A DNA stretch of 64,000 nt. It comes from Chrysogorgia sp. JL179-B06 (lineage: Eukaryota; Cnidaria; Anthozoa; Scleralcyonacea; Chrysogorgiidae). A model generated the notes under the pieces. It was given only the letters and a program-made list of their open reading frames with translations, made no database searches and had not been told where the DNA came from. This document shows, one piece after another, positions 30,360 to 61,634 of the stretch (within the stretch, counting starts at the first letter, position 1; each line of letters opens with the position of its first letter). Both the position numbers and the translations under genes were made by a program. The stretch lies in assembly GCA_035772405.1 (NCBI GenBank), contig JAYKKM010000226.1, positions 1,054,001 through 1,118,000 on the forward strand. The letters are read 5' to 3'.

Positions 30360-31117
30360 ATCCTAATGATTTTCTGAAAAACTGTTTAAAACTTGCAGTT
30401 ACACCACCACGTACAAACTCTGAAAACGAAAGTTCGGTGATGGGTTTTGCGGTCGTTCCGTATATTCAAGGGATTACGGAACCAATAAAAGCATCTTAGA
30501 CTTAGGAAGTTTCAATTAACGTAAAAGTTGCTCAAAAACCTTCTTGACGTTTGGTCATATTTTTGCAAAACCTAAGGGACTGGTCGTTATTTATGGCCGG
30601 GGACCGAAGAGAAAATTGTAAAATTGTAAATTGTAAGATTGTAAATTGTAAGATCTAAATGGTTGGGTAAAAAATAATGACTTCTCTGAAGGGTTGGGTA
30701 GCAAAACTTTCATGACTATTTATATAAAGAGTTCATCATTTAAAATTTTGTTATCTCCAGTTCTTTTTAGTCATCTTTGCACATTAGCTTTTGTTATTGT
30801 ATTCCTCTCCTCGTTTTCCTTGGATTCCTGCTCTGTATAGGGAGATAATAATCTGAAAGTTACAGTATTAAAACTTGTATCGACGATATGCTGAGAATTG
30901 GGGGCTTTATCTAACTTTTTTTCTTGGGTTTGGTAAAAGATTTTCTTTACCCATAAATGGTTAATGATGATGATGATAAAACTTTATTTAACCACGCTAA
31001 CCCTGTCAACCGAAGCTGATTTCCACAAGGACCGTGTGAAAAAGAAGTACAGAAGTATAATATTTAAAGCTATTTACAAAATATGATATATAAGTAGTAG
31101 AGTGCGGGGCTTAATGA
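30360..31117 (-). repeat. intergenic sequence; LINE-like 3' tail at about 30960-31055
   Basis: On the minus strand 30960-31055 ends in AATAAAGTTTTATCATCATC, a typical LINE 3' terminus with a (TCA)n tail. The remainder has a short TTGTAAGATTGTAAA tandem repeat (30610-30655) and no gene. The viral inverted repeat begins at 31118 right after it, and no target duplication flanking the virus could be recognised. Confidence 0.4.
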
Positions 31118-31230
31118 CCCTTTGAGGACGGACCTAGGTGAACTGTAAGTACCTTTCTTTTGTCTAGCCTGATTAGCATTTGGTGTATTGTTATTACCCC
31201 CTTAATAACAAAACTACTTTATGTTTTTAT

Positions 31231-31554
31231 ATGAACGAATGTCTTCGAGAGCATGAAGACTTGTATGAGTATCTTGCCGTTCAAATAAGTGGAGATAACT
31301 TGCCGAATAATTTGCACGATATTTACCAACAGATGGATGTTGTGCATTTTGGAAGAATCGTTGTTTATTTAACACTAGTGTGGAAAGTTAGCGATTCTTG
31401 TGACTCCGAAACAGTTCGAGAAGCTGTGGGTAGAACTGTTGAAGTTTTTAGACGCGTGGACTTGACAAAATATAAACCGGTGAAGAAACTGTCATGGTTT
31501 AGGCGACTGACTTGGCCGGTTTTATTAACGACGCTGTCGTTATGGATGTTGTAA
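31231..31554 (+). pseudogene. Bcl-2-like tail-anchored protein, left copy, 5' end deleted
   Basis: This is the left-arm copy of the gene at 44356-44754. The 154-base deletion removed its promoter-proximal region, start codon and the first coding stretch (MAEQTIWDELRRNNIEIDK in the right copy). The remaining frame stays open to TAA at 31554, with the first ATG at 31231. The BH1-like FGRIVVYLTLVWKV and the hydrophobic tail are kept. Probably not expressed as a full protein. Confidence 0.6.
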
Positions 31555-31616
31555 AGTTGCTAAGGCCAAAGAGAGCAAGACATTAAAAAGTCATTAGTCT
31601 GCTGTGCTTCAACAAC

Positions 31617-31738
31617 TTTACGCCTGATTTGAATATTAGGTTTGAATGAGAAAAAAACTCATTAAAAGGTCATTAGGCGAATGCGTGGGTTCGAACTCGC
31701 TTCGTCGATTATAAGCCTGCGTTTTACGTTAACTAGCA
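31617..31738 (+). promoter_or_regulatory. shared intergenic module and TATA-like box upstream of the PC4-like gene
   Basis: It contains GCCTGATTTGAATATTAGG, GTTTGAATGAG and AAACTCATTAAAAGGTCATT, followed by GCGTGGGTTC. The same words occur in the same order at 33495-33592 upstream of the MG protein and integrase. TTATAAG at 31709-31715 lies about 25 bases before the PC4-like ATG. The module is mirrored in the right arm. Confidence 0.45.
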
Positions 31739-32323
31739 ATGGACGAGATTTTTGCGACTCCAATGAACTTTGTGCACGAAAGACCGATATTGCTAAAGAA
31801 ACGTGGTTCAAAGGAAGTTTACGTCTATTCCGATCAGTTCTTTCAAGAGATGCGTGTATGTATCAAAGAGTTTACGGATAGAGACGGAGTCAAATTGCTA
31901 GTGGAAGGTAGAGGAATAACATTAACCGAGCCGGTATTTGAAAAAATGTTGGACCTTATACCGATGCTTGTGGAGATTGTTGAGGAGAAGGATACCTTAA
32001 CTGAAGACATCAAGTTCTCGTTGTTAGAAGAAGGGGCCCTGGTTAGACCGTATCTTTCTGCCAGCGATGTTAACGGCAAAACGCGATTTAATATCGGCGT
32101 TGATAATTTCGAATGGGACCAAACGTTCGGTGGTTTAAAGCAGATCTATGATGGGAAACTCTTTTCGTTCACCGAGAAAGAGCTACCTCACGTGCAGAAA
32201 GTACTGAGAGAGATGCAACGAAAAATGAACGAGAGAAACATTCAGAAACCACCAGACATTAAAAAAGCGCGCATTACGTTCAGAAGATATTGGAAGATGG
32301 TCGTTGGAGTTAAGGGAATGTGA
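31739..32323 (+). CDS. PC4-like single-stranded-DNA-binding protein, left copy
   Basis: 194 aa. Residues about 40-75 (CIKEFTDRDGVKLLVEGRGI then TLTEPVFEKMLDLIP) match the core of the PC4/p15 coactivator fold: a beta strand with REF-type residues, a charged loop, 'G(R/K)GITL' and a long helix. A second, weaker PC4-like half follows (FNIGVDNFEW ... GKLFSFTEKELPHVQKVL, residues about 115-150). The basic C-terminus is FRRYWKMVVGVKGM. PC4 proteins bind single-stranded or melted DNA; in a virus of this kind a role in replication or late transcription is plausible but inferred. The right-arm copy has one extra Glu (LLEEEGAL). Confidence 0.55.
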   Translation: MDEIFATPMNFVHERPILLKKRGSKEVYVYSDQFFQEMRVCIKEFTDRDGVKLLVEGRGITLTEPVFEKMLDLIPMLVEIVEEKDTLTEDIKFSLLEEGALVRPYLSASDVNGKTRFNIGVDNFEWDQTFGGLKQIYDGKLFSFTEKELPHVQKVLREMQRKMNERNIQKPPDIKKARITFRRYWKMVVGVKGM

Positions 32324-32542
32324 ACCATGCGTTATATTAATTTTAGTGACTGCTTTGACTACGAATAATATGTATTAGTGAATAAAATTAAATTAAAGTG
32401 TATTTTCATCGCTTGCCTAAAGTCGATCAGACTTGTTTCCGATAATCGGTTTTTAATGAGTTTCGTCACAATGGCGAGCCACGCGAGTCCGGTCTTGTTC
32501 TATTGTCTCGCTTGCGAAGATTGTTGTTACTATAGGCAAACA

Positions 32543-32594
32543 TTATAAAAGTAGGGGGTTTCGTAAATATTTAATAGTTGTGTTTATTGTTACG
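32543..32594 (+). promoter_or_regulatory. TATA box and leader of the zf-GRF gene
   Basis: TTATAAAAG lies about 45 bases upstream of the ATG at 32595, preceded by GC-moderate intergenic sequence. It is present identically in the right arm (about 43314-43365). The gene therefore seems to have its own early-type promoter. Confidence 0.4.
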
Positions 32595-33260
32595 ATGGAG
32601 TGTCTTCACGGCGAACCCGCAGTTTTCGTAACAACTAAGAATGGCAAGTTTTGGCTTTGCGACAACAAGAACGAGAAAAGCTGTGAGTTTTTTTGCCCAG
32701 ACCAAGATCGTGGTTATTTCGAGAATGCTCTGTTGCTGTGGCGAACAAACGGAGCTCCGCGACCAGTCTGTCACGTCCACCAGAGACCGGCTAAGATGCG
32801 AGTTGTGAAAGACGCGGCGAAATCAAATTTTGGAAGACCTTTCTTCGTCTGCTGTAGTAGAGAGAATCCTTGTTCCTTTTGGCAGTGGGGCGATCGAGTT
32901 GAAGATCCGAAACCGACATGTCAACACGGACTGATTTGTCGCGTTCGGAAAGTCAAGAAAGAGGGAAACAACCAAGGCCGTTTGTTTTGCTGTTGTCCAA
33001 ATCAAAAAGAAACGTCGTGTGGTTTTTTTGAATGGAAACCGATTGAAGACCGCAACGAGCACCGCCAGCATGTTGAGAAAGTTGGTTGTTTGTATAGCAA
33101 CCCACCGCAGTACAGCTACATGGTCTCCGACACAGGTCTTACGTTTCAAAGCCTGAGGGAAGATCCCAACGATGCCTTCGCTGAGTATATAGGAGAACTA
33201 CCTAACTTATCGATGCCCACTAACCTAACGGAAGGATGGGTGCCTGAGGACATAAAATAA
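32595..33260 (+). CDS. triple GRF zinc-finger protein, left copy
   Basis: 221 aa from ATG 32595 (the frame opens earlier only at a GTG). Three GRF-type zinc-finger modules are in tandem: CLHGEPAVFVTTKNGKFWLC followed by CEFFCPDQ; CHVHQRPAKMR followed by GRPFFVCC and CSFWQWGD; CQHGLICRVRKV followed by GRLFCCC and CGFFEW. Each has the C-x-H ... C ... C ligand set and the aromatic 'G(R/K)xFxxC ... CxFFxW' pattern. zf-GRF domains bind single-stranded DNA in TOP3A, NEIL3, APE2 and TTF2. Three in a row with little else suggests a virus-encoded ssDNA-binding factor; the function is inferred. AATAAA follows at 33358. Protein identical in both arms. Confidence 0.65.
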   Translation: MECLHGEPAVFVTTKNGKFWLCDNKNEKSCEFFCPDQDRGYFENALLLWRTNGAPRPVCHVHQRPAKMRVVKDAAKSNFGRPFFVCCSRENPCSFWQWGDRVEDPKPTCQHGLICRVRKVKKEGNNQGRLFCCCPNQKETSCGFFEWKPIEDRNEHRQHVEKVGCLYSNPPQYSYMVSDTGLTFQSLREDPNDAFAEYIGELPNLSMPTNLTEGWVPEDIK

Positions 33261-33494
33261 TTATTTTAGACAACAATTAGGCTGACGAACACAAAAAAGA
33301 CAGAACTCTGAGACTGTGTGATATTTGTAAGAACCAAAACGTGTAAATACCTTAAACAATAAAGTAAATTCAAACTGTTAAAATTGTTGTTGTTTTTTGG
33401 TATTTTTTTTTTCTTGCTTTCTGCGTACTGGCAAATAAAGTTTCTTCGTCGGAACTTTCGAGGTCCCGAAGGGCAAAAGCGTGGGTCGTTGCTA

Positions 33495-33734
33495 AGGCCT
33501 GATCTGAATATTTCGTCCTGAATTTGAATATTGCTTAATTATATGTTTGAATGGAAAACTCATTAAAAGGTCATCAGGGTTTGCGTGGGTTCAGCGACTT
33601 ATCGGCTAACGATATTCTGACGACGAAACAATCATAAGGATTTGTCTATATAAGTTCAGTTGAAATTCGAGTCCTTAAAACACCTAGTCGTGTTTCACCT
33701 CGACTCATTTCTCGCCATTGCTTGACATGACAAG
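33495..33734 (+). promoter_or_regulatory. second copy of the shared module with TATA box
   Basis: It has GGCCTGATCTGAATATT, GTTTGAATGG and AAACTCATTAAAAGGTCATC then GCGTGGGTTC, matching 31617-31690. TATATAAG at 33646-33653 is about 85 bases upstream of the MG-protein ATG. The GTTGCTAAGGCC motif preceding it is also found after the Bcl-2-like stop (31553-31564). Confidence 0.45.
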
Positions 33735-33917
33735 ATGGGTCAGTGTTTTGGAAAACCAATAATCCCTAGTGTGAAACTGACAGATATTTTTAAACGGATA
33801 CGGTGTCTCTGTACGTGTTGCGGTGGAAGTGTTGTAATTGTTCAATCGGAACTTGATGGAAAAGAAGAGACAACAACTCCTGAAGAAAATATACTACGAC
33901 CCGAAACACCAAGCTAG
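33735..33917 (+). CDS. small MG/Cys-rich protein, predicted N-myristoylated, left copy
   Basis: 60 aa beginning MGQCFGKP. Gly2 with small residues at position 6 fits an N-myristoylation signal, and Cys4 plus the CLCTCCGG cluster could be palmitoylated. No membrane helix is present, so attachment would be by lipid. It overlaps the integrase frame by about 60 bases in a different register, with ATG 33735 preceding integrase ATG 33856, so the two may share a message. The acidic C-terminus ends RPETPS (ETPR in the right arm). It is conserved in both arms, but I cannot name a family. Confidence 0.5.
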   Translation: MGQCFGKPIIPSVKLTDIFKRIRCLCTCCGGSVVIVQSELDGKEETTTPEENILRPETPS

Positions 33918-34941
33918 TTTTAGCGGTGTCGAAAAACTTTTTCGTGCGGCGAAAGATGCTAGTAAAGACAAGATAAAACTGACACGAAAACATGTTCGTG
34001 AGTGGGTACGCGCTCAGGAGACGTACTCTCTACATAAACCTGTGCGTAAAAACTTCCCGCGAAACAGAGTATTTGTTGGGGGTATTGACGACCAGTTTGA
34101 ATCCGATTTGGCCGATTTTCAATCTTTGAGTTCGTATAATGACAATTATAGATTTGTATTGGTTTGCATCGACTGTTTTTCAAAATACGCATGGGTGAGA
34201 CCCCTGAAGAACAAAACAGGACCTGTTGTTGCGCGTGCGTTTCGTGATATATTGGAGGAGGGACGCGTGCCAAAATATCTTCACACCGATCACGGAACAG
34301 AGTATTTAAACGCCTCATTTCGAAATCTTATGCGACAATTCAACATTCACTTTTTCACGGCAAACACTGACACGAAAGCGAGCATAGCCGAGAGATTTAT
34401 CAGAACGTTGAAACAAAAGATTTACCGTTATTTTACGGCCAACAACACCACGCGTTATATTGACGTATTACAAGATTTGGTTTTTGCGTACAACCACAGT
34501 TATCACCGCTCGATTAAAGAGATACCGGCCAATGTTACCAGAGAGAACGAATATCGAGTAAGACAAACTTTATATGGAGAAAAGCAGAAAAAAATCAAAT
34601 TCAAATTTAAAGTGGGTGATCTGGTGAAAATTAGTAAGATGCGTAGAGTGTTTGAAAAAGCATACAATCAAGGTTGGACAGAAGAGAATTTTACTATCAC
34701 CGAACAAGTTCCACGACACCCACCCGTGTACAAACTGAAAGACTTCGACGGAGAAGTACTTGGTGGTACTTTCTACGAACATGAGCTACAGCGAGTCACA
34801 AAAAAAGATAATGTTTATCGCGTGGATCGCATTCTGCAGACGAGAACGAGAAACGGTCGTAAACAACACTTTGTGAGTTGGAAAAATTATCCAGCTAAGT
34901 TTAACAGTTGGGTTGATGAAAAGGATATAAAGGCTCTTTAG
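33856..34941 (+). CDS. retroviral-type integrase with chromodomain, intact copy
   Basis: 361 aa from the first ATG (33856). The rve catalytic core has Asp at about 84 (ESDLADF), Asp145 (LHTDHGTEY) and Glu179 (KASIAERF), the DDE triad. A basic 'KFKFKVGDLVKISKM' SH3-like segment follows, then a C-terminal chromodomain (about 319-361: YRVDRILQTR, HFVSWKNYP, SWVDEKDI). This is the Polinton/adintovirus integrase arrangement; it would insert the linear element into host DNA, possibly steered by histone marks. The 5' part through the chromodomain core lies in the repeat, but the last 13 codons are unique to this side. Intact here; the right copy is broken. Confidence 0.88.
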   Translation: MEKKRQQLLKKIYYDPKHQASFSGVEKLFRAAKDASKDKIKLTRKHVREWVRAQETYSLHKPVRKNFPRNRVFVGGIDDQFESDLADFQSLSSYNDNYRFVLVCIDCFSKYAWVRPLKNKTGPVVARAFRDILEEGRVPKYLHTDHGTEYLNASFRNLMRQFNIHFFTANTDTKASIAERFIRTLKQKIYRYFTANNTTRYIDVLQDLVFAYNHSYHRSIKEIPANVTRENEYRVRQTLYGEKQKKIKFKFKVGDLVKISKMRRVFEKAYNQGWTEENFTITEQVPRHPPVYKLKDFDGEVLGGTFYEHELQRVTKKDNVYRVDRILQTRTRNGRKQHFVSWKNYPAKFNSWVDEKDIKAL

Positions 34942-34964
34942 ACTAAACCTCGTCGTTTAGTTGG
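34921..34964 (+). promoter_or_regulatory. TATA-like box ahead of the capsid gene block
   Basis: GATATAAAGG at 34923-34932, inside the last codons of the integrase, is about 35 bases before the penton-like ATG. The next four genes are tightly packed (overlap or gaps under 10 bases), so this could drive a late capsid cluster. Confidence 0.3.
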
Positions 34965-35741
34965 ATGCAAACCGTCGAAATGCAAAGGTCAAAGGGATTT
35001 TTCTTAACTTTACCTAGCAATAGTTGTTTGACCACATTCCCTTCAAATACTGTCGCCAATTTTACGGTGAAACTCCCCGAATCCATTTCCTTGGAAGGTG
35101 ACTGGGAAGTAGCGTTAGTGGAAATGTTATATTCACATACCTGGAGCACAATACGAGAGGGGAATCAACAAACATTTTTGTATAGGCTGGGCGAGACTGA
35201 AAAAGGTTATGCGACCGGGATTATTGACAGCGGTCATTATAACACCGTTGCTGATGTCGTGCAAGCCTTAAACCGTTGCATAACGAAAGAGGCAAAAGAA
35301 AAGATAAAATTTTCATACGTTCGAAACAAGCAGAAAGTGAGAGTTGATGTTCCTAAAGGAGGTCTCGTTTTGCTGAATGGTGATATAGCCAGCACGCTGG
35401 GGTTTGACCAAGATACACTGATTGAGAAGAAAACGATTAGTCCTTATGTTGCTGATATCAACGGTGGATTTTCCACAATGTTTGTGTACTGCAATCTAGT
35501 GAGCGACCAAATAGTAGGTGATAAACGGGTCCCTTTACTTCGCACTGTTAATATCGAAGGAAAATATGGCGATAGTATTACAAAAACTTACCAGAATCCT
35601 TTCTATATACCTGTTGGAGTCAAAAACTTTGAGACGGTCGAAATTGATATAAGTGACGGCTCTGGAAGACGAGTTCCATTCCAGTACGGGCGCTCGATCT
35701 GTACACTTCATCTCAGACCAAATCACTCCATTCATTTTTGA
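34965..35741 (+). CDS. penton-like minor capsid protein (putative)
   Basis: 258 aa. It opens with a segment typical of this family in animal adintovirus-like elements: GFFLTLPSNSCLTTFPSNTV then FTVKLPESISLEGDWEVALV. It is rich in beta-strand pattern and lacks membrane segments or known enzymatic motifs. Length and position directly before the core-like and major capsid genes fit the single-jelly-roll penton (minor capsid) protein; the assignment rests on context and family memory rather than a diagnostic motif. It ends 4 bases before the next ATG. Confidence 0.6.
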   Translation: MQTVEMQRSKGFFLTLPSNSCLTTFPSNTVANFTVKLPESISLEGDWEVALVEMLYSHTWSTIREGNQQTFLYRLGETEKGYATGIIDSGHYNTVADVVQALNRCITKEAKEKIKFSYVRNKQKVRVDVPKGGLVLLNGDIASTLGFDQDTLIEKKTISPYVADINGGFSTMFVYCNLVSDQIVGDKRVPLLRTVNIEGKYGDSITKTYQNPFYIPVGVKNFETVEIDISDGSGRRVPFQYGRSICTLHLRPNHSIHF

Positions 35742-35745
35742 GAAA

Positions 35746-36192
35746 ATGAAAACTTGGCAAAGAGGAGGCGCTTTACCCATGTTTGTCGGAGCGCGAGTAC
35801 AAAGAGGATATGGAAGGTTTCGTACACAACGCGGCAATGGTTTGGGTGGTATTTTAAAAAAGTTGTTTCGTAGCGCAGTACCATTTTTAATTCGAGGAGG
35901 GAAAGCAATTGGCCGACAGGTATTAAAGGCTGGTATTAACGTTGGAGAGGATGTGCTGGCGGGAAAAAATGCGAAAACTGCCGCGCAGACCCGTCTGAAA
36001 GAGGCGGTCGGTAGTATTACAAAGAAGGCAATTAATCGCGCGAAAGAACAACAAAGTACTCAAACTGGCAAAGGTCGCGGTACAAAACGACGTGCAAAAA
36101 ATAAACCTGCCACTTTGAAGAAATCTCGCAAAGCAAACACTCCTAAATCAAAGCGCAAGAAACAAGAACATAACGATATATTCCGAATATAA
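35746..36192 (+). CDS. basic virion core/pVI-like protein
   Basis: 148 aa from the first ATG (35746). The N-terminal third is Gly/Arg-rich (RVQRGYGRFRTQRGNGLGG), followed by an amphipathic helix with alternating hydrophobic residues (ILKKLFRSAVPFLI). The C-terminal half is extremely basic (TGKGRGTKRRAKNKP and KKSRKANTPKSKRKK). That layout resembles the adenovirus pX/pVI-type minor virion proteins that condense DNA or disrupt membranes. It sits between the penton-like and major capsid genes, two bases before the latter. Confidence 0.6.
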   Translation: MKTWQRGGALPMFVGARVQRGYGRFRTQRGNGLGGILKKLFRSAVPFLIRGGKAIGRQVLKAGINVGEDVLAGKNAKTAAQTRLKEAVGSITKKAINRAKEQQSTQTGKGRGTKRRAKNKPATLKKSRKANTPKSKRKKQEHNDIFRI

Positions 36193-36194
36193 AC

Positions 36195-37529
36195 ATGCTG
36201 AAAGCCGTGCACGATGAGTCTGAAGGTTGCAACAAAAGCGAACTTGACCTATTTACAGTTCCGCCTACGCAAGTTACGGTTGAAAAAAGTACATTTGTCG
36301 ATTATTACCCTGTATCTACATTGGGTGAAGATTCCGCCCCAATCGAGTTTTATGTCCCTGGCAATGGCGAAGATTACCTCGACCCAAGTCGCATGCAACT
36401 CTATGTCAAAGCCAAAATTAAAACTGCAGGTGGTGGTGACATAGGTGGGACAGCCGCAGTCGGCCCACAGAACTTATTCCTGCAATCACTGTTTAGTCAA
36501 GTGAATGTTTCGCTCAACGACAAACTTATTACACCAAGTTCCGCCACTTACGCCTATCGTGCAATGATCGAAACACTTCTAAATTTTGGGCCCGCTGCGA
36601 AAAAATCACAGTTGACCACGAGTCTGTACTACAAAGATACACCTGGCAAAATGAACGCTGTTGATCCCAATGCCGAAGTTGCTGATGCCAACATGGGATT
36701 AAAACTCCGTAATAGATTTACAAGAACGAGTAAGAGTTGTGACATGTCTGGACCATTGCACGCCGACATTTGCTTTCAAGAACGCTTGATTATACCTGGA
36801 GTGGCCATAAAAGTGAAACTGGTCAGAAGCAAACCTGAATTCTGTTTGGTTGCGGGCGGGGATGACCCAGCCTACAAAGTGCTTATTGAACAAGCTGTGC
36901 TCCGCGTCCGTCGCGTGACGGTGAGCCCTACGCTTCGTTTGGATCACGAGAAATACCTAGATAAAACGACAGCCAAATATCCACTATCGAGAGTTGAAGT
37001 GAAACCTATTGCTATCCCTCAGGGGCTTTTGTCCTTGGACAGAGAGAACGTGTTTCTTGGTGTTTTACCAAAGCGTGTGGTCATCGCTCTCGTCAACAGC
37101 GCGGCATTTCATGGCAGTTATGTGGAAAACGCGTTCAACTTTCACCATTACAAAGTCACCCAAGTCAGTTTATCTGTAAATGGAGATACTCGCAAACCTA
37201 TTCAAGTGAAATTCGAAACTAACGGTGAAGGGGAGTACATTCGAGGTTTCGACACATTGTTTTCCGGGATGGATAAAATGTATGCAGACGCCGGAAACCT
37301 TATCAGTCGCGAGGACTATGGCAAAGGGTACGCTCTTTACGCTCTAGATCTCACTCCGGATCTCTCAAGCTCTGAACATTTCAACCCTGTTCAAACTGGA
37401 AACATACGTCTAAGTATTCAGTTCGCACAAGCCCTGCCACATACAGTGACCTGTTTGGTTTACGCCGAGTTCGAAAGTCTTATTGAAATTGACAAGAGCA
37501 GAAACATCATCTTTGATTTTAGCACATGA
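36195..37529 (+). CDS. major capsid protein (double-jelly-roll, hexon-like)
   Basis: 444 aa. It contains the family block DYYPVSTLGEDSAPIEFYVP, then DYLDPSRMQLYVKAKI and QNLFLQSLFSQVNVSLNDK, and further on VFLGVLPKRVVIALVNS and GSYVENAFNFHHYKVTQVSL. These are hallmark stretches of the Polinton/adintovirus major capsid protein (the family often labelled F54H12.2-like in animal genomes). Two jelly-roll halves are inferred. The stop overlaps the protease start (ATGA at 37526-37529), indicating coupled expression. The gene is intact. Confidence 0.82.
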   Translation: MLKAVHDESEGCNKSELDLFTVPPTQVTVEKSTFVDYYPVSTLGEDSAPIEFYVPGNGEDYLDPSRMQLYVKAKIKTAGGGDIGGTAAVGPQNLFLQSLFSQVNVSLNDKLITPSSATYAYRAMIETLLNFGPAAKKSQLTTSLYYKDTPGKMNAVDPNAEVADANMGLKLRNRFTRTSKSCDMSGPLHADICFQERLIIPGVAIKVKLVRSKPEFCLVAGGDDPAYKVLIEQAVLRVRRVTVSPTLRLDHEKYLDKTTAKYPLSRVEVKPIAIPQGLLSLDRENVFLGVLPKRVVIALVNSAAFHGSYVENAFNFHHYKVTQVSLSVNGDTRKPIQVKFETNGEGEYIRGFDTLFSGMDKMYADAGNLISREDYGKGYALYALDLTPDLSSSEHFNPVQTGNIRLSIQFAQALPHTVTCLVYAEFESLIEIDKSRNIIFDFST

Positions 37530-38041
37530 ATACGGCCGCAATAAACGAAATCCTTAGAACCGACGTTTTGGTACGAAAGGTTTTTGGGGGTGTATACGCA
37601 TCCGACAAGCTGCCCGAACACGTCGACAAGTATCCGAAAGCATATGTGGCAAACGTGGACTCAAGTGATCGACCTGGCAGTCATTGGGTGGCGTTTTATT
37701 TCACTAGCTCTGAAAAAGGAGAGTTTTTTGACTCATTGGGACAGAACCCAAAAATCTATGCACCGACTTTTGTATCATTCCTTGGTAGAAACTGTTCTCA
37801 ATGGACATATAATCACCGTACATTACAATCGCCGTTTTCCAATGTGTGCGGACAATATTGTATTTATTATTTAGTATATCGTTGTAGAAAAATAGAAATG
37901 AGTGTTATCGCGCACAAATTTACCAACAATCTTGTAAACAATGATTACTTAGTTGCCGAGTTTGTAAGAACACATTTTACTTTGTCCGCGCCTCGTGGGT
38001 CTAGTCAGAAAGCAGTTGCCAAATACTCGACACGTGTGTAA
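37526..38041 (+). CDS. adenain-type cysteine protease
   Basis: 171 aa, close to the usual length of the adenovirus maturation protease. His53 (GSHWVAFYF), Asp69 (FFDSLG), Gln101 and Cys108 (VCGQYCIYY) supply the catalytic set. The Q-x6-C spacing equals that of adenain, and the Asp-x-Leu-Gly block is the acidic member. It would cleave capsid precursors during maturation. It overlaps the major capsid gene by four bases and is the last plus-strand gene before the convergent polymerase. Confidence 0.85.
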   Translation: MNTAAINEILRTDVLVRKVFGGVYASDKLPEHVDKYPKAYVANVDSSDRPGSHWVAFYFTSSEKGEFFDSLGQNPKIYAPTFVSFLGRNCSQWTYNHRTLQSPFSNVCGQYCIYYLVYRCRKIEMSVIAHKFTNNLVNNDYLVAEFVRTHFTLSAPRGSSQKAVAKYSTRV

Positions 38042-38995
38042 ATGGTTAAAAGTGAATTTAATTACAATTATTAAAAAAAAGAATACATCAGTTGTTATTG
38101 TCGTACCGTTTTCACACTCTCTAACTATTTACACTAAGTTTCTATAATTATATAACACACGATAATTCTAAGCAAAGATGCTTGCGTACACACCAAAAAA
38201 GTTTCAATAATAAGTGTCGTTTGTTTCGGTATATGAACAACTATCATAAGGTCTAGCGACAAAACTGTCCCATAATTCTACTACTAATTAAGTCGGTGTA
38301 AAATCTTGAGTACGATAAAAAAATTCTATTTATTATTATTATTATTTGTTATTTATTATTTTTTTTTTTAAAAACCTGTCACGTTGTTCATATACTGAAA
38401 CAAAAGAAAGTCGAGAGCAATGAAGGAATCCTAACCTACCCAGCGACCGTTTAAGGGTTGTTTATATGAACCGAGCTAATTATTTTGACGAAGTTTTTAT
38501 CACGGCATGCATCCAAAATGATATTTCAAAGCAGAACTGGTTTAGTTTGTCTGTATAGGAAGAGCCTAAAGTTAATTCGAAATGATCTTTTCGTGACATA
38601 AACTCAACCGGCTAGCTCGACTCGTATAAACAACCCTTACTTAAAATATTAAGGTATATGTGTATGCCTACACTTCTTCGTTTTCCCCCATGTGGGATAT
38701 CAATATAAAATAAATTAATACGCATGCGCCGTTTGGGTGAAGTCAGTTGCGCATCATCAGATATGTAGTAAACACTGCCCACCAAACTAACACGCTATGT
38801 TGTATGGAAAACATAGTTATTTTTTCGATATATGGACAACTAGCGTGCATATATGCTTCAAATATATATTAGAAGAAAGGGAATTCTCCCGACACAGTGC
38901 TATATATTCATGTTAATTTTGTATAACAACTAGAAAGTTTATAGATAACCAGCTCAGTTGCCCATATACTGAAAAATAAAACTATCCTTTGCCTC
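38042..38995. repeat. intergenic region with three successive inverted-repeat units
   Basis: No gene. Arms at 38219-38241/38383-38405 (TTGTTTCGGTATATGAACAA and complement), 38452-38478/38613-38639 (AAGGGTTGTTTATATGAACC and complement) and 38816-38842/38956-38982 (TTTTTTCGATATATGGACAA and complement) form three hairpins of about 165-190 bp. All six arms share a GTTG(T/C)(T/C)CATATA-like core. The region separates the plus-strand capsid block from the minus-strand polymerase. Transcription termination, replication start, or small nested MITEs are all possible. Confidence 0.6.
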
Positions 38996-40171
38996 TTAAA
39001 TATCTAAATACGTGGTACTGACGCCATCCTCCAAAACCTTACGCTTCCCATAAAAATACGAAAAGGCATTCTTCACCTGCGTGTAAGTAAATATAGCATT
39101 GCCCTTGACACGAAAACCTCTGTTTGTCGCGGAGCTTGTGGCCTTGCTGCGAATGACACGCAAATAGGTGTCTTTGTCGATCGCATTCGTTCGCTTATTT
39201 ACCCCCTTGCAACTATACTTCGCCTTCGAGTCGTTGAAACAAAAATACATCTTACTGCACAAACTTATAATCCCATCCCCTTCAAACTCGGTCTTAAATA
39301 ATCCTGGGGTACGTTTATCGAAAGCCCTAACTTCATCGTCATAGTCTCGGGGAAACCAAGCAAATTTCTCCCGTTCGTATTCAGCTCGGAGTTCCGGTTT
39401 GACCAAAGCGTCAACACTTTCACCGGAAAGTGCCACGTATGCAGAGTCAGTATCCATTTCGCAGTACTCGAAATCAGAGCGGTCAAGAAATTTGTCCATA
39501 AAATCGAAATATAATTGGAGCATGCGGAGTTTCGCGTATTGGTATACGAAAAAGCCAATTTGGATTGGCAAATCCATTTTGATCGTCTTTTTTGTTCGGC
39601 TTATTTCATAAAAATTTTCGTCCAAAATGTCCAGTTTGCGAAAATGTGAATCGTTCACAGCTAAACCAACGCTGGTTTCGTCGCAATACTTGATGTCGAG
39701 GTATTTTTCTTTGTTTGTTAGCGTTCGACCGTAAGCGGAATTTCCAAAGAGTTTCATCGTTTCGGCGATAATTGCTGTCGAGGGATCACGATCCCCTTGG
39801 CGACGCGCGTTGCTAACATCGTTCGCAAAACCTTCAAAACACTTTTTAGGAACATATTCCACTACCTCGTATATTTCCGTGACCTCTAAACCGTGTTCTA
39901 AGTACCAACGTAACAGCGGCGTTGTTAATAGTATCTTATTGCCAAACATGCTGCCGATTAAACCTCGTCTTGGTTTCGTATTTAATTTATTTTGGGTGAC
40001 AAAGTTTTGCATATGTTCTCCAATGGCTTCAAAAGGTATGTCGACATTTTTAAAAATAGGGCACATTTCTGAAAATTTGTCCTTCTTGTTATCGGGAACC
40101 CTAATGTCGCATTCCACAACACCGAACAATTGCTCGTTTTTGACCTGTGTTAGGATATCCGAAACAGTCAT
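38996..40171 (-). pseudogene. protein-primed DNA polymerase B, C-terminal fragment
   Basis: 391 codons including palm motif B (MKLFGNSAYGRTL) and motif C (YCEMDTDSAYVAL, the DTDS metal-binding site), and the thumb region to the stop at 38996. The upstream portion is in another frame (40168-40752); the two overlap by ATGA, so a one-base frame change separates them. Polintons and adintoviruses replicate with this enzyme. Together the pieces are far shorter than the usual 1000-plus residues: the exonuclease and terminal regions are missing, so replication by this copy is unlikely. Confidence 0.8.
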
Positions 40172-40752
40172 AGCTGTTCGACCTGACAGTATTCTTCAAG
40201 AAACGTCCTCAAACGCTCGTCCGTCTTGCGCATGTTTTTGTATTCGCATTCCCAAATTTCTGTTACGATATAACCGCGTTCCTCTAAATACCGTTTTCTC
40301 TGCATAGTCCGTTCGTAAAGGACGGTCATTTGAACACCGCACCTTTCATTAACATCGTTCGGATTCAATTCGCATGGATGACCATGCCAATAACACCCCT
40401 GAAATTCAAATATTGTCCTATTCTCAACATCAAAACCGTCAACGAGGTACCGTCCAATGCGTTGTTCTCCTCGGTTATGGGCGTGAGCGATATTTAGGCC
40501 GTCGCGGTACGCTAAGAAGTCTAACCACTCAATACTCCATTTATTGTAATACTCTTGTCTCTTAAATCCGTTTTCTTTCTTTCGCCTAACGTAATAGCTG
40601 CAGGGCATCTTTTCGGCCATGGCCCAAAGATAAAGTGCATTGGCGTCGGCACCCCAAATCCGTTTGCATGGTTTCCCTGAACATTGATGAACTGAATATA
40701 TAATTTTGTATTCTAATTTCTTGTATAATAAATGTTTTCTCCTACTATACAT
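40168..40752 (-). pseudogene. protein-primed DNA polymerase B, middle fragment
   Basis: 194 codons from ATG 40752. It carries palm motif A (GADANALYLWAM, equivalent to DxxSLYP) and the insert typical of animal Polinton polymerases (GCYWHGHPC and RKRYLEERGYIVTEIWECEY). It ends in TGA overlapping the next fragment. Upstream, 40753-40925 on the same strand holds only a short Cys/His segment (FCFKCGNVSFTNYGIHKHLL) in another frame after an A-rich run, perhaps a relic of the polymerase's zinc-finger-like region. Confidence 0.7.
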
Positions 40753-40893
40753 TTGTATACGTGTCTTTTTTTTTTTCTTATTGGGACGTCAACGGCGCAT
40801 GCGAGTAAGTGTTTATGTATCCCATAATTTGTAAAGGATACATTCCCACATTTAAAACAGAAACTTTTGCGATTATCCCTACGAATCGATATG

Positions 40894-41004
40894 GACATAA
40901 TTTTTGATGAGTTAAAACGACACAACGTTGCTATCGATAGAGATACACTATCCTATAATATTCAAACATGTCTTAGCAAACATCGACACCTATTTGATAG
41001 ACTA
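40894..41004 (+). pseudogene. diverged second start of the Bcl-2-like gene, cut at the repeat junction
   Basis: The frame MDIIFDELKRHNVAIDRDTL and onward aligns with the start of the right-arm Bcl-2-like protein (QTIWDELRRNNIEIDKTTL): E-L-(K/R)-R-(H/N)-N-(V/I)-x-I-D-(R/K)-x-T-L are shared. Homology stops exactly where the right inverted repeat begins (41005), after which the frame runs into antisense integrase. It is a paralogue from a related element or an older end of this one. Confidence 0.5.
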
Positions 41005-42052
41005 AAACTTAGCTGGATAATTTTTCCAACTCACAAAGTGTTGTTTACGACCGTTTCTCGTTCTCGTCTGCAGAATGCGATCCACGCGATAAACATTATC
41101 TTTTTTTGTGACTCGCTGTAGCTCATGTTCGTAGAAAGTACCACCAAGTACTTCTCCGTCGAAGTCTTTCAGTTTGTACACGGGTGGGTGTCGTGGAACT
41201 TGTTCGGTGATAGTAAAATTCTCTTCTGTCCAACCTTGATTGTATGCTTTTTCAAACACTCTACGCATCTTACTAATTTTCACCAGATCACCCACTTTAA
41301 ATTTGAATTTGATTTTTTTCTGCTTTTCTCCATATAAAGTTTGTCTTACTCGATATTCGTTCTCTCTGGTAACATTGGCCGGTATCTCTTTAATCGAGCG
41401 GTGATAACTGTGGTTGTACGCAAAAACCAAATCTTGTAATACGTCAATATAACGCGTGGTGTTGTTGGCCGTAAAATAACGGTAAATCTTTTGTTTCAAC
41501 GTTCTGATAAATCTCTCGGCTATGCTCGCTTTCGTGTCAGTGTTTGCCGTGAAAAAGTGAATGTTGAATTGTCGCATAAGATTTCGAAATGAGGCGTTTA
41601 AATACTCTGTTCCGTGATCGGTGTGAAGATATTTTGGCACGCGTCCCTCCTCCAATATATCACGAAACGCACGCGCAACAACAGGTCCTGTTTTGTTCTT
41701 CAGGGGTCTCACCCATGCGTATTTTGAAAAAACAGTCGATGCAAACCAATACAAATCTATAATTGTCATTATACGAACTCAAAGATTGAAAATCGGCCAA
41801 ATCGGATTCAAACTGGTCGTCAATACCCCCAACAAATACTCTGTTTCGCGGGAAGTTTTTACGCACAGGTTTATGTAGAGAGTACGTCTCCTGAGCGCGT
41901 ACCCACTCACGAACATGTTTTCGTATCAGTTTTATCTTGTCTTTACTAGCATCTTTCGCCGCACGAAAAAGTTTTTCGACACCGCTAAAACTATCTTGGT
42001 GTTTCGGGTCGTAGTATATTTTCTTCAGGAGTTGTTGTCTCTTCTTTTCCAT
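41005..42052 (-). pseudogene. integrase, right copy: frameshifted and 3'-truncated
   Basis: It is the same gene as 33856-34941. A run of six T (five in the left copy) after the codons for CIDC, near 41731, shifts the frame between the catalytic Asp region and the rest. The downstream part (YAWVRPLK to the chromodomain) is open in another frame to 41002. The chromodomain is cut at KNYPAKF by the repeat edge. Two substitutions distinguish the N-terminal part (ASFSG to DSFSG, KLTRK to KLIRK). Confidence 0.8.
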
Positions 42053-42173
42053 CAAGTTCCGATTGAACAATTACAACACTTCCACCGCAACACGTACAGA
42101 GACACCGTATCCGTTTAAAAATATCTGTCAGTTTCACACTAGGGATTATTGGTTTTCCAAAACACTGACCCAT
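41991..42173 (-). CDS. small MG/Cys-rich protein, right copy
   Basis: 60 aa, identical to the left copy at 33735-33917 except for the last residue (Arg instead of Ser). It retains MGQCFGKP and CLCTCCGG and the overlap with the integrase start. The shared upstream module and TATATAAG are also present. Confidence 0.5.
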   Translation of the reverse strand: MGQCFGKPIIPSVKLTDIFKRIRCLCTCCGGSVVIVQSELDGKEETTTPEENILRPETPR

Positions 42174-42647
42174 CTTGTCATGTCAAACAATGGCGAGAAA
42201 TGAGTCGAGGTGAAACACGACTAGGTGTTTTAAGGACTCGAATTTCAACTGAACTTATATAGACAAATCCTTATGATTGTTTCGTCGTCAGAATATCGTT
42301 AGCCGATAAGTCGCTGAACCCACGCAAACCCTGATGACCTTTTAATGAGTTTTCCATTCAAACATATAATTAAGCAATATTCAAATTCAGGACGAAATAT
42401 TCAGATCAGGCCTTAGCAACGACCCACGCTTTTGCCCTTCGGGACCTCGAAAGTTCCGACGAAGAAACTTTATTTGCCAGTACGCAGAAAGCAAGAAAAA
42501 AAAAATACCAAAAAACAACAACAATTTTAACAGTTTGAATTTACTTTATTGTTTAAGGTATTTACACGTTTTGGTTCTTACAAATATCACACAGTCTCAG
42601 AGTTCTGTCTTTTTTGTGTTCGTCAGCCTAATTGTTGTCTAAAATAA

Positions 42648-43313
42648 TTATTTTATGTCCTCAGGCACCCATCCTTCCGTTAGGTTAGTGGGCATCGATA
42701 AGTTAGGTAGTTCTCCTATATACTCAGCGAAGGCATCGTTGGGATCTTCCCTCAGGCTTTGAAACGTAAGACCTGTGTCGGAGACCATGTAGCTGTACTG
42801 CGGTGGGTTGCTATACAAACAACCAACTTTCTCAACATGCTGGCGGTGCTCGTTGCGGTCTTCAATCGGTTTCCATTCAAAAAAACCACACGACGTTTCT
42901 TTTTGATTTGGACAACAGCAAAACAAACGGCCTTGGTTGTTTCCCTCTTTCTTGACTTTCCGAACGCGACAAATCAGTCCGTGTTGACATGTCGGTTTCG
43001 GATCTTCAACTCGATCGCCCCACTGCCAAAAGGAACAAGGATTCTCTCTACTACAGCAGACGAAGAAAGGTCTTCCAAAATTTGATTTCGCCGCGTCTTT
43101 CACAACTCGCATCTTAGCCGGTCTCTGGTGGACGTGACAGACTGGTCGCGGAGCTCCGTTTGTTCGCCACAGCAACAGAGCATTCTCGAAATAACCACGA
43201 TCTTGGTCTGGGCAAAAAAACTCACAGCTTTTCTCGTTCTTGTTGTCGCAAAGCCAAAACTTGCCATTCTTAGTTGTTACGAAAACTGCGGGTTCGCCGT
43301 GAAGACACTCCAT
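42648..43313 (-). CDS. triple GRF zinc-finger protein, right copy
   Basis: 221 aa, identical in sequence to the left copy (32595-33260), with the same TATAAAAG box upstream. Absolute identity over this length, including silent positions as far as I compared, points to recent duplication, gene conversion between arms, or arm copying during replication. Confidence 0.65.
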   Translation of the reverse strand: MECLHGEPAVFVTTKNGKFWLCDNKNEKSCEFFCPDQDRGYFENALLLWRTNGAPRPVCHVHQRPAKMRVVKDAAKSNFGRPFFVCCSRENPCSFWQWGDRVEDPKPTCQHGLICRVRKVKKEGNNQGRLFCCCPNQKETSCGFFEWKPIEDRNEHRQHVEKVGCLYSNPPQYSYMVSDTGLTFQSLREDPNDAFAEYIGELPNLSMPTNLTEGWVPEDIK

Positions 43314-43584
43314 CGTAACAATAAACACAACTATTAAATATTTACGAAACCCCCTACTTTTATAATGTTTGCCTATAGTAACAACAATCTTCGCAAGCGA
43401 GACAATAGAACAAGACCGGACTCGCGTGGCTCGCCATTGTGACGAAACTCATTAAAAACCGATTATCGGAAACAAGTCTGATCGACTTTAGGCAAGCGAT
43501 GAAAATACACTTTAATTTAATTTTATTCACTAATACATATTATTCGTAGTCAAAGCAGTCACTAAAATTAATATAACGCATGGT

Positions 43585-44172
43585 TCACATTCCCTTAACT
43601 CCAACGACCATCTTCCAATATCTTCTGAACGTAATGCGCGCTTTTTTAATGTCTGGTGGTTTCTGAATGTTTCTCTCGTTCATTTTTCGTTGCATCTCTC
43701 TCAGTACTTTCTGCACGTGAGGTAGCTCTTTCTCGGTGAACGAAAAGAGTTTCCCATCATAGATCTGCTTTAAACCACCGAACGTTTGGTCCCATTCGAA
43801 ATTATCAACGCCGATATTAAATCGCGTTTTGCCGTTAACATCGCTGGCAGAAAGATACGGTCTAACCAGGGCCCCTTCTTCTTCTAACAACGAGAACTTG
43901 ATGTCTTCAGTTAAGGTATCCTTCTCCTCAACAATCTCCACAAGCATCGGTATAAGGTCCAACATTTTTTCAAATACCGGCTCGGTTAATGTTATTCCTC
44001 TACCTTCCACTAGCAATTTGACTCCGTCTCTATCCGTAAACTCTTTGATACATACACGCATCTCTTGAAAGAACTGATCGGAATAGACGTAAACTTCCTT
44101 TGAACCACGTTTCTTTAGCAATATCGGTCTTTCGTGCACAAAGTTCATTGGAGTCGCAAAAATCTCGTCCAT
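43585..44172 (-). CDS. PC4-like protein, right copy
   Basis: 195 aa, the same as 31739-32323 except for one additional Glu codon in LLEEEGALV. The upstream module with ATTAAAAGGTCATTAGGCG is retained between this gene and the Bcl-2-like gene. Confidence 0.55.
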   Translation of the reverse strand: MDEIFATPMNFVHERPILLKKRGSKEVYVYSDQFFQEMRVCIKEFTDRDGVKLLVEGRGITLTEPVFEKMLDLIPMLVEIVEEKDTLTEDIKFSLLEEEGALVRPYLSASDVNGKTRFNIGVDNFEWDQTFGGLKQIYDGKLFSFTEKELPHVQKVLREMQRKMNERNIQKPPDIKKARITFRRYWKMVVGVKGM

Positions 44173-44355
44173 TGCTAGTTAACGTAAAACGCAGGCTTAT
44201 AATCGACGAAGCGAGTTCGAACCCACGCATTCGCCTAATGACCTTTTAATGAGTTTTTTCTCATTCAAACCTAATATTCAAATCAGGCGTAAAGTTGTTG
44301 AAGCACAGCAGACTAATGACTTTTTAATGTCTTGCTCTCTTTGGCCTTAGCAACT

Positions 44356-44754
44356 TTACAACATCCATAACGACAGCGTCGTTAATAAAACCGGCCAAGT
44401 CAGTCGCCTAAACCATGACAGTTTCTTCACCGGTTTATATTTTGTCAAGTCCACGCGTCTAAAAACTTCAACAGTTCTACCCACAGCTTCTCGAACTGTT
44501 TCGGAGTCACAAGAATCGCTAACTTTCCACACTAGTGTTAAATAAACAACGATTCTTCCAAAATGCACAACATCCATCTGTTGGTAAATATCGTGCAAAT
44601 TATTCGGCAAGTTATCTCCACTTATTTGAACGGCAAGATACTCATACAAGTCTTCATGCTCTCGAAGACATTCGTTCATATAAAAACATAAAGTAGTTTT
44701 GTCTATTTCGATATTATTTCTTCGCAATTCATCCCAAATCGTTTGCTCAGCCAT
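44356..44754 (-). CDS. Bcl-2-like tail-anchored protein, intact copy (putative)
   Basis: 132 aa from the first ATG (44754; the frame opens earlier only at a TTG). The N-terminal helix is QTIWDELRRNNIEIDK. The central VVHFGRIVVYLTLVWKV resembles the BH1 motif of the Bcl-2 family, whose core is (N/H)-(W/F)-G-R-(I/V)-V followed by a hydrophobic helix. The C-terminus is basic then hydrophobic (KKLSWFRRLTWPVLLTTLSL), like a mitochondrial/ER tail anchor. Size and mostly helical composition fit viral Bcl-2 proteins, which block host apoptosis. BH2 and BH3 are not clear by eye, so the call is tentative. It is the outermost gene of the right arm, transcribed inward. Confidence 0.5.
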   Translation of the reverse strand: MAEQTIWDELRRNNIEIDKTTLCFYMNECLREHEDLYEYLAVQISGDNLPNNLHDIYQQMDVVHFGRIVVYLTLVWKVSDSCDSETVREAVGRTVEVFRRVDLTKYKPVKKLSWFRRLTWPVLLTTLSLWML

Positions 44755-44943
44755 GGCGCCAAAATGAAATATTCCCGCCAACAACTCGACTATTTATCTT
44801 CCTCGGCTAGGGTTCGGACGCCTTTCGGAACCATTGATTATTCATAACTCATGAATTATTCCCTTAATAACAATACACCAAATGCTAATCAGGCTAGACA
44901 AAAGAAAGGTACTTACAGTTCACCTAGGTCCGTCCTCAAAGGG

Positions 44944-47385: not shown

Positions 47386-47844
47386 CTATTCAGTGGTAAA
47401 CTTCATCATAAATTCAAAGTCCCTATAACTAACTCGTCCATCACCATCTCGATCTACTTCTCTAAACAACCTTTGAAGGTCAAATGGTTTTACAAACGGT
47501 GCAACCACATTAAAAATATTCTTTACATCTTCCAGACCAATAAAGCCACGGCATTTAGTATCAAAAGCCAGAAAAGTTTGCCTAATTTCATCATCCTCAT
47601 CTTGCATTGAGAGCTTTGAGCACATAATTTTATTAAAAACTTCTCGTGATATGCCAGAAGAAACATTCTTTTCCTTTGCAAGCATTTCATTCACCTCGTA
47701 CTTGGAAGGTTTGTAGCCGAAAATTTCAACAACAGCTAACTTTAATTCATCTCTCGTTAAATAGCTCTTTTTTCCTCTGTCTGCATGGGAGAATACCTGA
47801 AAAATGTGGATTTGTTGCTTTCTATGAATTCCCTGGAACTCCAT
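47386..47844 (-). CDS. EFCAB11: EF-hand calcium-binding domain protein 11
   Basis: 152 aa in a single open frame from ATG 47844. It has four EF-hand-like units: HADRGKKSYLTRDELK, a degenerate NVSSGISREVF unit, FDTKCRGFIGLEDVK and the canonical loop DRDGDGRVSYRDF. FGYKPSKYEVNEML and the FREVDRDGDG...FRDFE-like end match vertebrate EFCAB11 (163 aa) in order and spacing. The first three loops lack several acidic ligands, so only the last is likely to bind calcium well. It appears intronless here. It is arranged head to head with IK, 381 bases between start codons. Confidence 0.78.
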   Translation of the reverse strand: MEFQGIHRKQQIHIFQVFSHADRGKKSYLTRDELKLAVVEIFGYKPSKYEVNEMLAKEKNVSSGISREVFNKIMCSKLSMQDEDDEIRQTFLAFDTKCRGFIGLEDVKNIFNVVAPFVKPFDLQRLFREVDRDGDGRVSYRDFEFMMKFTTE

Positions 47845-48225
47845 CTTGGATTCTCCTAGAATTAGGACGGTACTTCATGTTATAGACATATAGTGGTTTG
47901 CATATACTGTAAGTCTGTAGCCTGTAGGTAATACGGTTTCTGGTGGTTTACGGTTGTTTCTGGTGGTTTGTGGTTGTTTCTGGTGGTTTACGGTTGTTTC
48001 TCCGTTTCTTCAAACTCCAGCCATTTTCTTTTCTTGAATCTTCAAGACTTCAACCTTTCAGTTTCTTGAATTTTCAGCCATTCCCAATCCGTTTCTTGAA
48101 TTTTTGATGATTTTGACATATCCAGTGGAATTGTGGGATATGGTTTTACTCCAGCTCTCGCCATTTTTCAGATATTCACAGTAAACAAATTTTCTCTTGA
48201 TTGTTCAACCTAATTCGAGATCAAA
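47845..48225. promoter_or_regulatory. probable bidirectional promoter of EFCAB11 and IK
   Basis: 381 bases separate two divergent start codons. 47935-48000 is a small tandem array of GGTTTCTGGTGGTTTACGGT/TGTTTCT units and 48005-48110 repeats TTTCTTGAATTTTCA-like motifs. No TATA box is evident. Shared control of the two genes is inferred from spacing alone. Confidence 0.45.
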
Positions 48226-61262: not shown

Positions 61263-61634
61263 GTAAATGGCTTAGGATAAACGTTTATGTTTATCGACAA
61301 TATTGAAGATTCAAGACATTTTAGCCGAGTAAATCGCCTAGTAAAAGTTTATGTAAATCAACACAAGAAAGTGATCAGCAAACCACCATCACCTCCACCA
61401 AGCCGAGAAGATCAAGCCGTGTCCCCAAGCCACCTATACAACCATTACAATTAACTCTTTAATCCCCAGTATCAGCATACAAAGTCTCCAAACATTTCTT
61501 ATAGTTAATAGTTTGAAGAAGTTGTATAAAAAATATGTCAGTTTTCTTTTGTTGATCATTGATATTACGGACCTTAAGATCTATGATGGTAACCTCAACA
61601 AAGACGTCAATCAAAACAAAATAATTATTGATGG

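Follow-up and report, generated by a model that had tools for sequence, protein, structure and literature searches.

A polymerase-broken Polinton in a Chrysogorgia chromosome whose inverted arms probably arose by duplication of one end

How does a Polinton come to carry the same set of genes at both ends? The question is raised by a 64,000-nucleotide stretch of DNA (the window) from Chrysogorgia sp. JL179-B06 (assembly GCA_035772405.1, contig JAYKKM010000226.1, positions 1,054,001-1,118,000), in which two inverted arms enclose a core of 6.1 kb (Table 1). The initial annotation described near-identical, gene-bearing arms of unusual length, and both points hold. The arms differ by 3 substitutions and 7 gap events in 3784 aligned columns, and they measure 3.8-3.9 kb, compared with 46-1447 bp (mean 402) for the TIRs of intact vertebrate Mavericks (PMC8097293).

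Table 1. Features of the window element, in window coordinates
Feature	Position	Strand	Remarks
Left terminus	31093..31117	+	AGTAGT end motif; 25 nt outside arm, unique in window
Left inverted arm	31118..34902	+	3785 nt
g1, left copy	31231..31554	+	107 aa left; start lost through 151-bp deletion
g2, left copy	31739..32323	+	194 aa
GRF zinc-finger protein, left copy	32595..33260	+	221 aa; PF06839, E=7e-23
Integrase, left copy	33856..34941	+	361 aa, open; rve PF00665 and chromodomain PF00385
258-aa protein, minor-capsid position	34965..35741	+	Synteny with relatives
148-aa basic protein, PW position	35746..36192	+	Synteny with relatives
Major capsid protein (MCP)	36195..37529	+	444 aa
Adenain-like protease	37526..38041	+	171 aa; PF00770, E=0.001, just under cut-off
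Spacer between convergent modules	38042..38995	.	96-97% conserved in C222 and C121a
PolB remnant, C-terminal part	38996..40677	-	Two ORFs, 391 and 194 aa
Patch from another Polinton lineage (C)	40678..41004	+	327 bp; carries start of divergent g1
Right inverted arm, flipped copy of left end	41005..44943	-	3939 nt
Integrase, right copy	41002..42052	-	Frameshifted; ends 12 residues early
GRF protein, right copy	42648..43313	-	Identical to left copy
g2, right copy	43585..44172	-	195 aa
g1, right copy	44356..44754	-	Full 132 aa

The element is a recently inserted, polymerase-broken Polinton in an animal chromosome, and by descent we file it as a degraded Polinton/Maverick derivative rather than a complete member. 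This descent, proposed at the outset, is confirmed by an integrase of retroviral type with a chromodomain (1904 homologues among 2716 candidates), by capsid genes, and by an adenovirus-like protease whose sub-threshold Pfam score is backed by synteny and by 38% identity to the protease of a relative. The MCP has 1464 homologues among 6920 candidates, one of them, among the matches listed, a named capsid protein. As in the vertebrate Maverick/Polinton elements (PMC8097293), integrase, minor capsid, PW, MCP, and protease converge on PolB, and related copies in this genome have AGTAGT/ACTACT ends and 6-bp duplications. Unlike those elements, the window element has four-gene arms and a truncated PolB, and no ATPase was found. 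Searches with the packaging ATPases of two relatives as queries gave no significant match in the window or in the fetched stretches of the related copies C121a and C222. Of the capsid/protease/polymerase core described initially, the capsid genes and protease are present, while the polymerase is reduced to its C-terminal part.

The initial annotation called the element an adintovirus/Polinton. It shares an rve integrase with chromodomain, an adenain-like protease, and a Polinton-type capsid with that group, but lacks the N-terminus of PolB, with the OTU-like domain by which adintoviruses are partly defined (PMC11071296), so the assignment is not confirmed. Pfam found zinc fingers but no OTU domain in the related PolB L005 or in pieces of one related copy. 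Comparison of the 258-aa protein with solved structures and PDB sequence searches returned nothing useful, the Rfam and tRNA scans were both empty, and no relative was found in the phage collection or in an MCP scan of viral contigs, although the integrase scan of those contigs gave two distant relatives.

The arms were said to carry the same five genes each. A shared set including the integrase is indeed present, but the count is four: two small genes (g1 and g2), a GRF zinc-finger gene, and the integrase. The g2 and GRF frames are open in both arms, and each arm has one broken gene, a startless g1 on the left and a frameshifted, shortened integrase on the right. For g1, 3 homologues were found and a resemblance to Bcl-2 fell below the cut-off; g2 had no match in a Pfam search, and the predicted structure models of both were poor (mean pLDDT 45.5 for g1 and 49.5 for g2). 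Four of the 7 gap events between the arms make up 151 bp absent from the left arm. We attribute this gap to a deletion there, because the left-arm state occurs in 0 other fetched loci, whereas 14 have the right-arm state for the largest part of the gap.

The right junction indicates which arm is secondary. The PolB remnant matches residues ∼813-1397 of the L005 PolB (at least 1397 aa, its frame being open at the contig start) in two pieces, 47% and 39% identical, and the patch encodes the initial residues of the 194-aa ORF. A sister copy, C121a (C121:231.7-249.4 kb), keeps the order integrase-258-148-MCP-protease-spacer-PolB(-), with its MCP interrupted by about 5 kb. Window positions 37142-40677 are colinear with it at 96.6%, and colinearity ends at 40677. 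From there the sister PolB continues across the region missing from the window element, to residue 47 of the relative, and PolB matches are nearly full-length in both C121a and C222. The patch that follows in the window comes from a high-copy lineage, being 93-98% like 39 other places, while the joint between PolB and patch was seen in the window alone (1 of 40 scored matches; 182 candidates). The joints share about 1 bp, and the junction interrupts both PolB and the integrase. Since PolB is broken here, is longer in the sister copy, and is followed by a patch of another lineage before the right arm, we take the right arm to be secondary. A zinc-finger-like frame beside the junction was rejected as PolB; 31 of 500 shuffles scored equally high, and the frame lies within the patch.

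The left terminus is shared with the left ends of C455a, C54, C222, C263, and C404, and the right arm is without these terminal 25 nt. TATATA directly precedes the left terminus and would be the target duplication, but no partner was found. The initial annotation suggested looking for a 6-bp duplication at the element ends; none of three left-flank 6-mers recurred within 80 nt on the right, a side on which the element lacks its tip.

A search of the same genome for other copies, also suggested there, produced at least nine inverted pairs of the terminal region, picked among the matches listed, with arm lengths that vary between elements. We dropped the idea of a single freak event once these appeared. 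Five of the nine (C455a, C54, C222, C263, and C455b) have matched ends and a 6-bp target duplication, and two of these five are whole-element palindromes, of 4.88 kb (C455b) and 15.6 kb. The C455b palindrome of 4881 bp has arms of 2434 and 2426 nt with 7 mismatches. In C54, inner arms of 847 nt are 100% identical around a loop of 229 nt, and in C455a the left-end sequence is folded back at a 3-nt match. C404 has a 6-bp target duplication with one end cut; C97 and C448 (spacer 516 bp) have none, as judged by eye from the flanks; the reading of C114, C83, and C350 stopped short of at least one end. Arm divergence in these other pairs reaches a few percent. In the g1 tree, the arms of C222 pair together with strong support, as do those of C448, whereas the window arms do not form a resolved pair to the exclusion of C455a. 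In C455a, C455b, C54, and C222, the flanking target duplications support arms that formed before integration.

For the window element, we consider the probable origin to be a terminal duplication in which the opposite end was lost, giving a defective genome with the same end twice. The ancestor would have read [left end: g1, g2, GRF, integrase]-minor capsid-PW-MCP-protease, with PolB on the opposite strand. On the PolB side the outer part would have been lost and a flipped copy of the element's initial 3.8 kb gained, with a fragment of a different Polinton lineage as the link and hardly any homology where the pieces meet; the second arm does replace opposite-end genes. We infer that this took place on replicating linear DNA before integration, by strand-displacement fold-back or end joining. 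Its two termini being almost alike, the product could putatively be copied and integrated with proteins from intact relatives. Another copy, C121d (loci L019, L020, and L049), shares one substitution and one gap with the right arm, so a donor other than the element's own left arm is conceivable. A right repeat was looked for in C121a and none was found, which counts against this explanation, as does the placement of the window arms in the g1 tree.

A post-integration chromosomal rearrangement, with the inverted arm copied in by break repair or non-allelic exchange and the Polinton scrap carried along, is possible but rather doubtful. It would account for the missing right tip and target duplication, which weaken the case for integration as a unit, and the near-blunt joints suit end joining or microhomology-mediated repair. 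Lineage C is abundant in chromosomes, and its patch fits a chromosomal event too, a point against the terminal duplication that we prefer. However, the five duplication-flanked relatives must have had both ends at integration, and the arm copy stops ≤25 nt from the natural terminus, as expected of an end and less of a random segment. Two separate elements, inserted head-to-head and truncated against each other, could likewise explain a joint region that cuts both PolB and the integrase, but the near-identity of the arms makes this unlikely, as other fetched copies match the left arm at only 93.8-98.9% (eight matches over 2 kb).

Could the arms instead be native long terminal repeats, maintained by selection because they double the dose of early genes? 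The open g2 and GRF frames would agree with this, as would C222, whose 2.27-kb arms carry g1, g2, and nearly the whole GRF and are flanked by a target duplication. Yet inner arm limits differ among elements (31899, 32368, 33228-33235, and 34902 in window coordinates), and three of the four, all except 32368, fall inside a gene. The doubled dose raised earlier is unsupported, given one broken gene per arm and a truncated PolB, and we rejected the arms as native TIRs since the joint cuts two genes and the sister PolB is much longer; selection on such repeats is very improbable. Mis-assembly is common at inverted repeats, but an artefact is hardly credible here. The outer flanks of the two arms differ, each arm has its own mutations (including the left-only deletion), a foreign patch sits at the inner joint, and the genome holds other inverted pairs with diverged arms; a single arm or a mis-join is therefore unlikely.

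The likeness to larger DNA viruses suggested earlier is apt, though for the duplication of one end at the cost of the other rather than for a gene-bearing repeat that was native. The window element differs from poxvirus ITR expansion in being a Polinton that has integrated and that includes a patch of a different lineage; poxviruses are not known to integrate. Adenoviruses, with a protein-primed linear genome, form defective genomes with duplicated left ends that carry the same end twice. Incomplete adenovirus particles contain left-end DNA, as stated in PMC5033970. In mpox, one end is copied inverted to the opposite end and genes there are deleted (PMC10230479), as proposed here. In HCMV Towne and AD169, an inverted left-end duplication similarly takes the place of the right-end region, although these are laboratory herpesvirus variants (PMC2885757).

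More broadly, the Polintons of this animal may repeatedly have given rise to linear genomes of same-end and whole-palindrome ("snap-back") type, later integrated in trans with proper 6-bp duplications, and lineages with no more than about half-identical capsid proteins may have swapped terminal arms; our confidence in this is evenly divided. Polinton replication as free linear DNA is hard to observe directly. According to PMC8097293, Polinton particles have yet to be observed. If the generalization is true, these copies are chromosomal fossils of defective genomes and indirect evidence that Polintons pass through an extrachromosomal stage of linear, end-primed replication; duplication-flanked palindromic or end-duplicated copies would be the expected leftovers of template switching on free linear DNA. 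Terminal-repeat expansion, known in poxviruses and herpesvirus strains, would then extend to a small integrating virus-like element, and palindromic and end-duplicated copies would offer a countable genomic signature, searchable in any Polinton-bearing genome.

The two arms of the window element are inverted copies of each other, and their near identity, claimed in the initial annotation, is borne out: aligned arm to arm, they differ by 3 substitutions and 7 gap events across 3784 columns, a substitution distance of 0.08%. We polarised these differences by the state carried in the other fetched copies. Four gap events, summing to 151 bp absent from the left arm, show the left-arm state in none of the other loci and the right-arm state of their largest part in 14; two more gap events are likewise left-arm changes. 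For two of the three substitutions, the right-arm state is seen in no other locus. For the one substitution and one gap event that remain, the right arm shares its state with a single further copy (C121d; loci L019, L020 and L049), and ten loci each have the alternative. This separate mutation of the two arms argues against an assembly duplicate.

Each arm holds four genes (g1, g2, a GRF zinc-finger gene and an integrase) rather than the five first proposed, and a doubled early-gene dose is without support. Three homologues of g1 were found among 21 candidates, and its resemblance to Bcl-2 stays under the cut-off (window copy, E=0.13; homologue P0241, E=0.0048). The expected capsid, protease and polymerase core stands as regards the capsid genes and protease; the polymerase (PolB) is a remnant, matching residues 813-1397 of the PolB of a relative, L005 (at least 1397 aa, PF03175-positive). 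Among the best 120 of 1464 matches, relatives of the major capsid protein (MCP) named by source come from sea cucumbers, corals, lancelets, sea urchins and others. No packaging ATPase was found in the window or in the fetched stretches of the related elements C121a and C222; one is present in other Polinton lineages of the same genome.

The lost PolB side can be traced by comparison with C121a (C121, 231.7-249.4 kb), which has the gene order and spacer of the window element, an MCP interrupted by ∼5 kb and a PolB extending to residue 47; no right terminal repeat was found within the 5 kb fetched beyond it. Window 37142-40677 is colinear with C121a at 96.6%, and colinearity ends there. The next 327 bp are not PolB; this patch matches at least 39 other places in the genome at 93-98%, beginning at or near 40677 (40 scored matches of 182 candidates), and among those scored matches the window alone spans the PolB-patch joint. 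In three fetched examples, the patch has GRF on one side and on the other a divergent g1, the start of which lies within the patch; the integrase downstream is 41-52% identical to that of the window. The patch thus belongs to another Polinton lineage, C. The flipped integrase starts at 41005, right after the patch, and the joints on both sides share about 1 base each. PolB stops at 40677 and is followed by the patch and the flipped integrase; therefore, the right arm replaced the outer PolB side.

We searched the genome assembly (781 Mb, 522 contigs) with window 31000-32000 and obtained at least 84 matches; 40 of 1097 candidates were scored, so the counts are lower bounds. Nine inverted pairs, window included, were chosen by eye among the matches listed, and the ends of the other eight were fetched. 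The further copies sought by the initial annotation thus exist, with arms of varying size. Against the 0.08% substitution distance of the window arms, arms of the other pairs diverge by 0.3-2.7% per block, except the C54 inner block (0) and C263 (5.4%). Six-bp duplications adjoin the end motif in five of the nine (C455a, C54, C222, C263 and C455b), the right motif having base changes in C54 and C222; none was found for C97, C448 or the window element. At C404 the right end is cut at the g1 start, and beside the cut lie 6 bp matching the left flank, the pattern that integration of a shortened end would leave. Single-ended copies read on C121 (four places), C221 and C114 gave no further inverted pair of this kind. 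Three similar rearranged copies (L047-L049; G000:C121, 511-623 kb), two of them spaced 12.5 kb apart, carry a short inverted tip copy outside the left terminus.

Features of the window (G000:C226:1054001-1118000) and the other inverted pairs
Feature	Location	Size	Details
TANC/ankyrin-type exons	16975-27029		left neighbour
Left arm	31118-34902
g1	both arms	132 aa	left copy lacks start
g2	both arms	194/195 aa
GRF zinc-finger protein	both arms	221 aa	PF06839, E=7e-23
Integrase	both arms	361 aa	rve + chromodomain; right copy frameshifted, 12 residues short
Minor-capsid position	core	258 aa
PW position	core	148 aa
MCP and protease	core
PolB remnant	core		strand opposite to other core genes
Patch	40678-41004	327 bp
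Right arm	41005-44943		inverted
EF-hand gene	47386-47874		right neighbour
C455a		arms ∼1.4 kb	g1, g2; 97.8% across outer 1126 columns
C222		arms 2.27 kb	g1, g2, nearly all of GRF; 97.2%
C97		arms ∼3.6 kb	98.1 and 96.5% (two blocks)
C448		arms 4.0 kb	516-bp spacer; 98.9%
C404 (L042/L043)		arms 1.05 kb	97.8%
C263 (L044/L045)		arms 0.66-1 kb	92.9%
C54 (L038/L039)	G000:C54:853741-869296	15.6 kb	palindrome throughout; one insertion, integrase and ATPase per arm; inner 847 nt identical; loop 229 nt
C455b (L061)	G000:C455:566407-571287	4881 bp	whole-element palindrome; arms 2434/2426 nt, 7 mismatches, loop ∼21 nt; Polinton ends, identical 6-bp flanks

The inner limit of the repeat, in window coordinates, varies among pairs: ∼31899 in C263 and C404 (31895 for the first block of C54), 32368 in C455a, 33228-33235 in C222 and 34902 in the window, while C97 and C448 agree with the window arm, in both of their arms, up to 33395 and then continue into different sequence. 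Strong support joins the arms of C222 to each other in the g1 tree (20 rows), and likewise those of C448; the arms of the window, C455a, C97, C54 and C404 form small groups of unresolved inner order, and each arm of C263 lies in a supported group of its own, apart from the other arm. This tree places C222 with C404, whereas the GRF tree (14 rows) places it beside C97 and C448; the arms are therefore mosaics. The MCPs of C263 and C404 are 43-50% identical to that of the window, but their g1 genes are ∼92-95% identical where alignment is good (C263 has a fragmented left g1), which suggests that terminal arms moved between lineages. C263 and C404 are chimeric Polintons.

How could one end come to be present twice? 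An end-copied linear genome would gain the same end twice if the copying strand folded back or joined another molecule; the product would retain two like termini and could be integrated by the integrase of a relative. Target duplications indicate that same-end molecules were integrated as units in C455a, C455b, C54 and C222, and we infer the same formation and integration for the window element. Adenoviruses are known to form genomes in which the left end is duplicated. Parallels to this proposed origin are described in reports on mpox, with terminal duplications and deletion at the receiving end (PMC10230479), and on end duplication in HCMV Towne/AD169 (PMC2885757). Among the papers listed in literature searches, judged mostly from titles, no title reported end-duplicated or palindromic Polintons.

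At the window element itself, AGTAGT at 31093 marks the left terminus, and the right arm lacks the final 25 nt. For vertebrate Mavericks, both the AGTAGT/ACTACT motif and duplications of 6 bp have been described (PMC8097293). In the window element the left motif is present; the 6-bp duplication that the initial annotation proposed to look for was not found, since three left-flank 6-mers were sought in the 80 nt on the right side and none of them is there. The element lacks the ATPase, the right tip and a target duplication, so we class it by descent, as a degraded derivative of a Polinton. Its place between TANC/ankyrin-type exons and an EF-hand gene makes it chromosomal, and these genes, together with the named relatives of the capsid protein, point to an animal host. 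The element is real; it is recent and defective, and it belongs to a group. What is strongest in the finding lies outside the window: the palindromes flanked by target duplications. The C455a right arm has an ∼8.9-kb insertion within g2 (G000:C455:702083-711007). Two intergenic stretches of the window arm share a 24-nt repeat (31654-31677 and 33555-33578; 96%), and 61631-64000, up to the window end, is a tandem array of ∼74 units of 32 bp.
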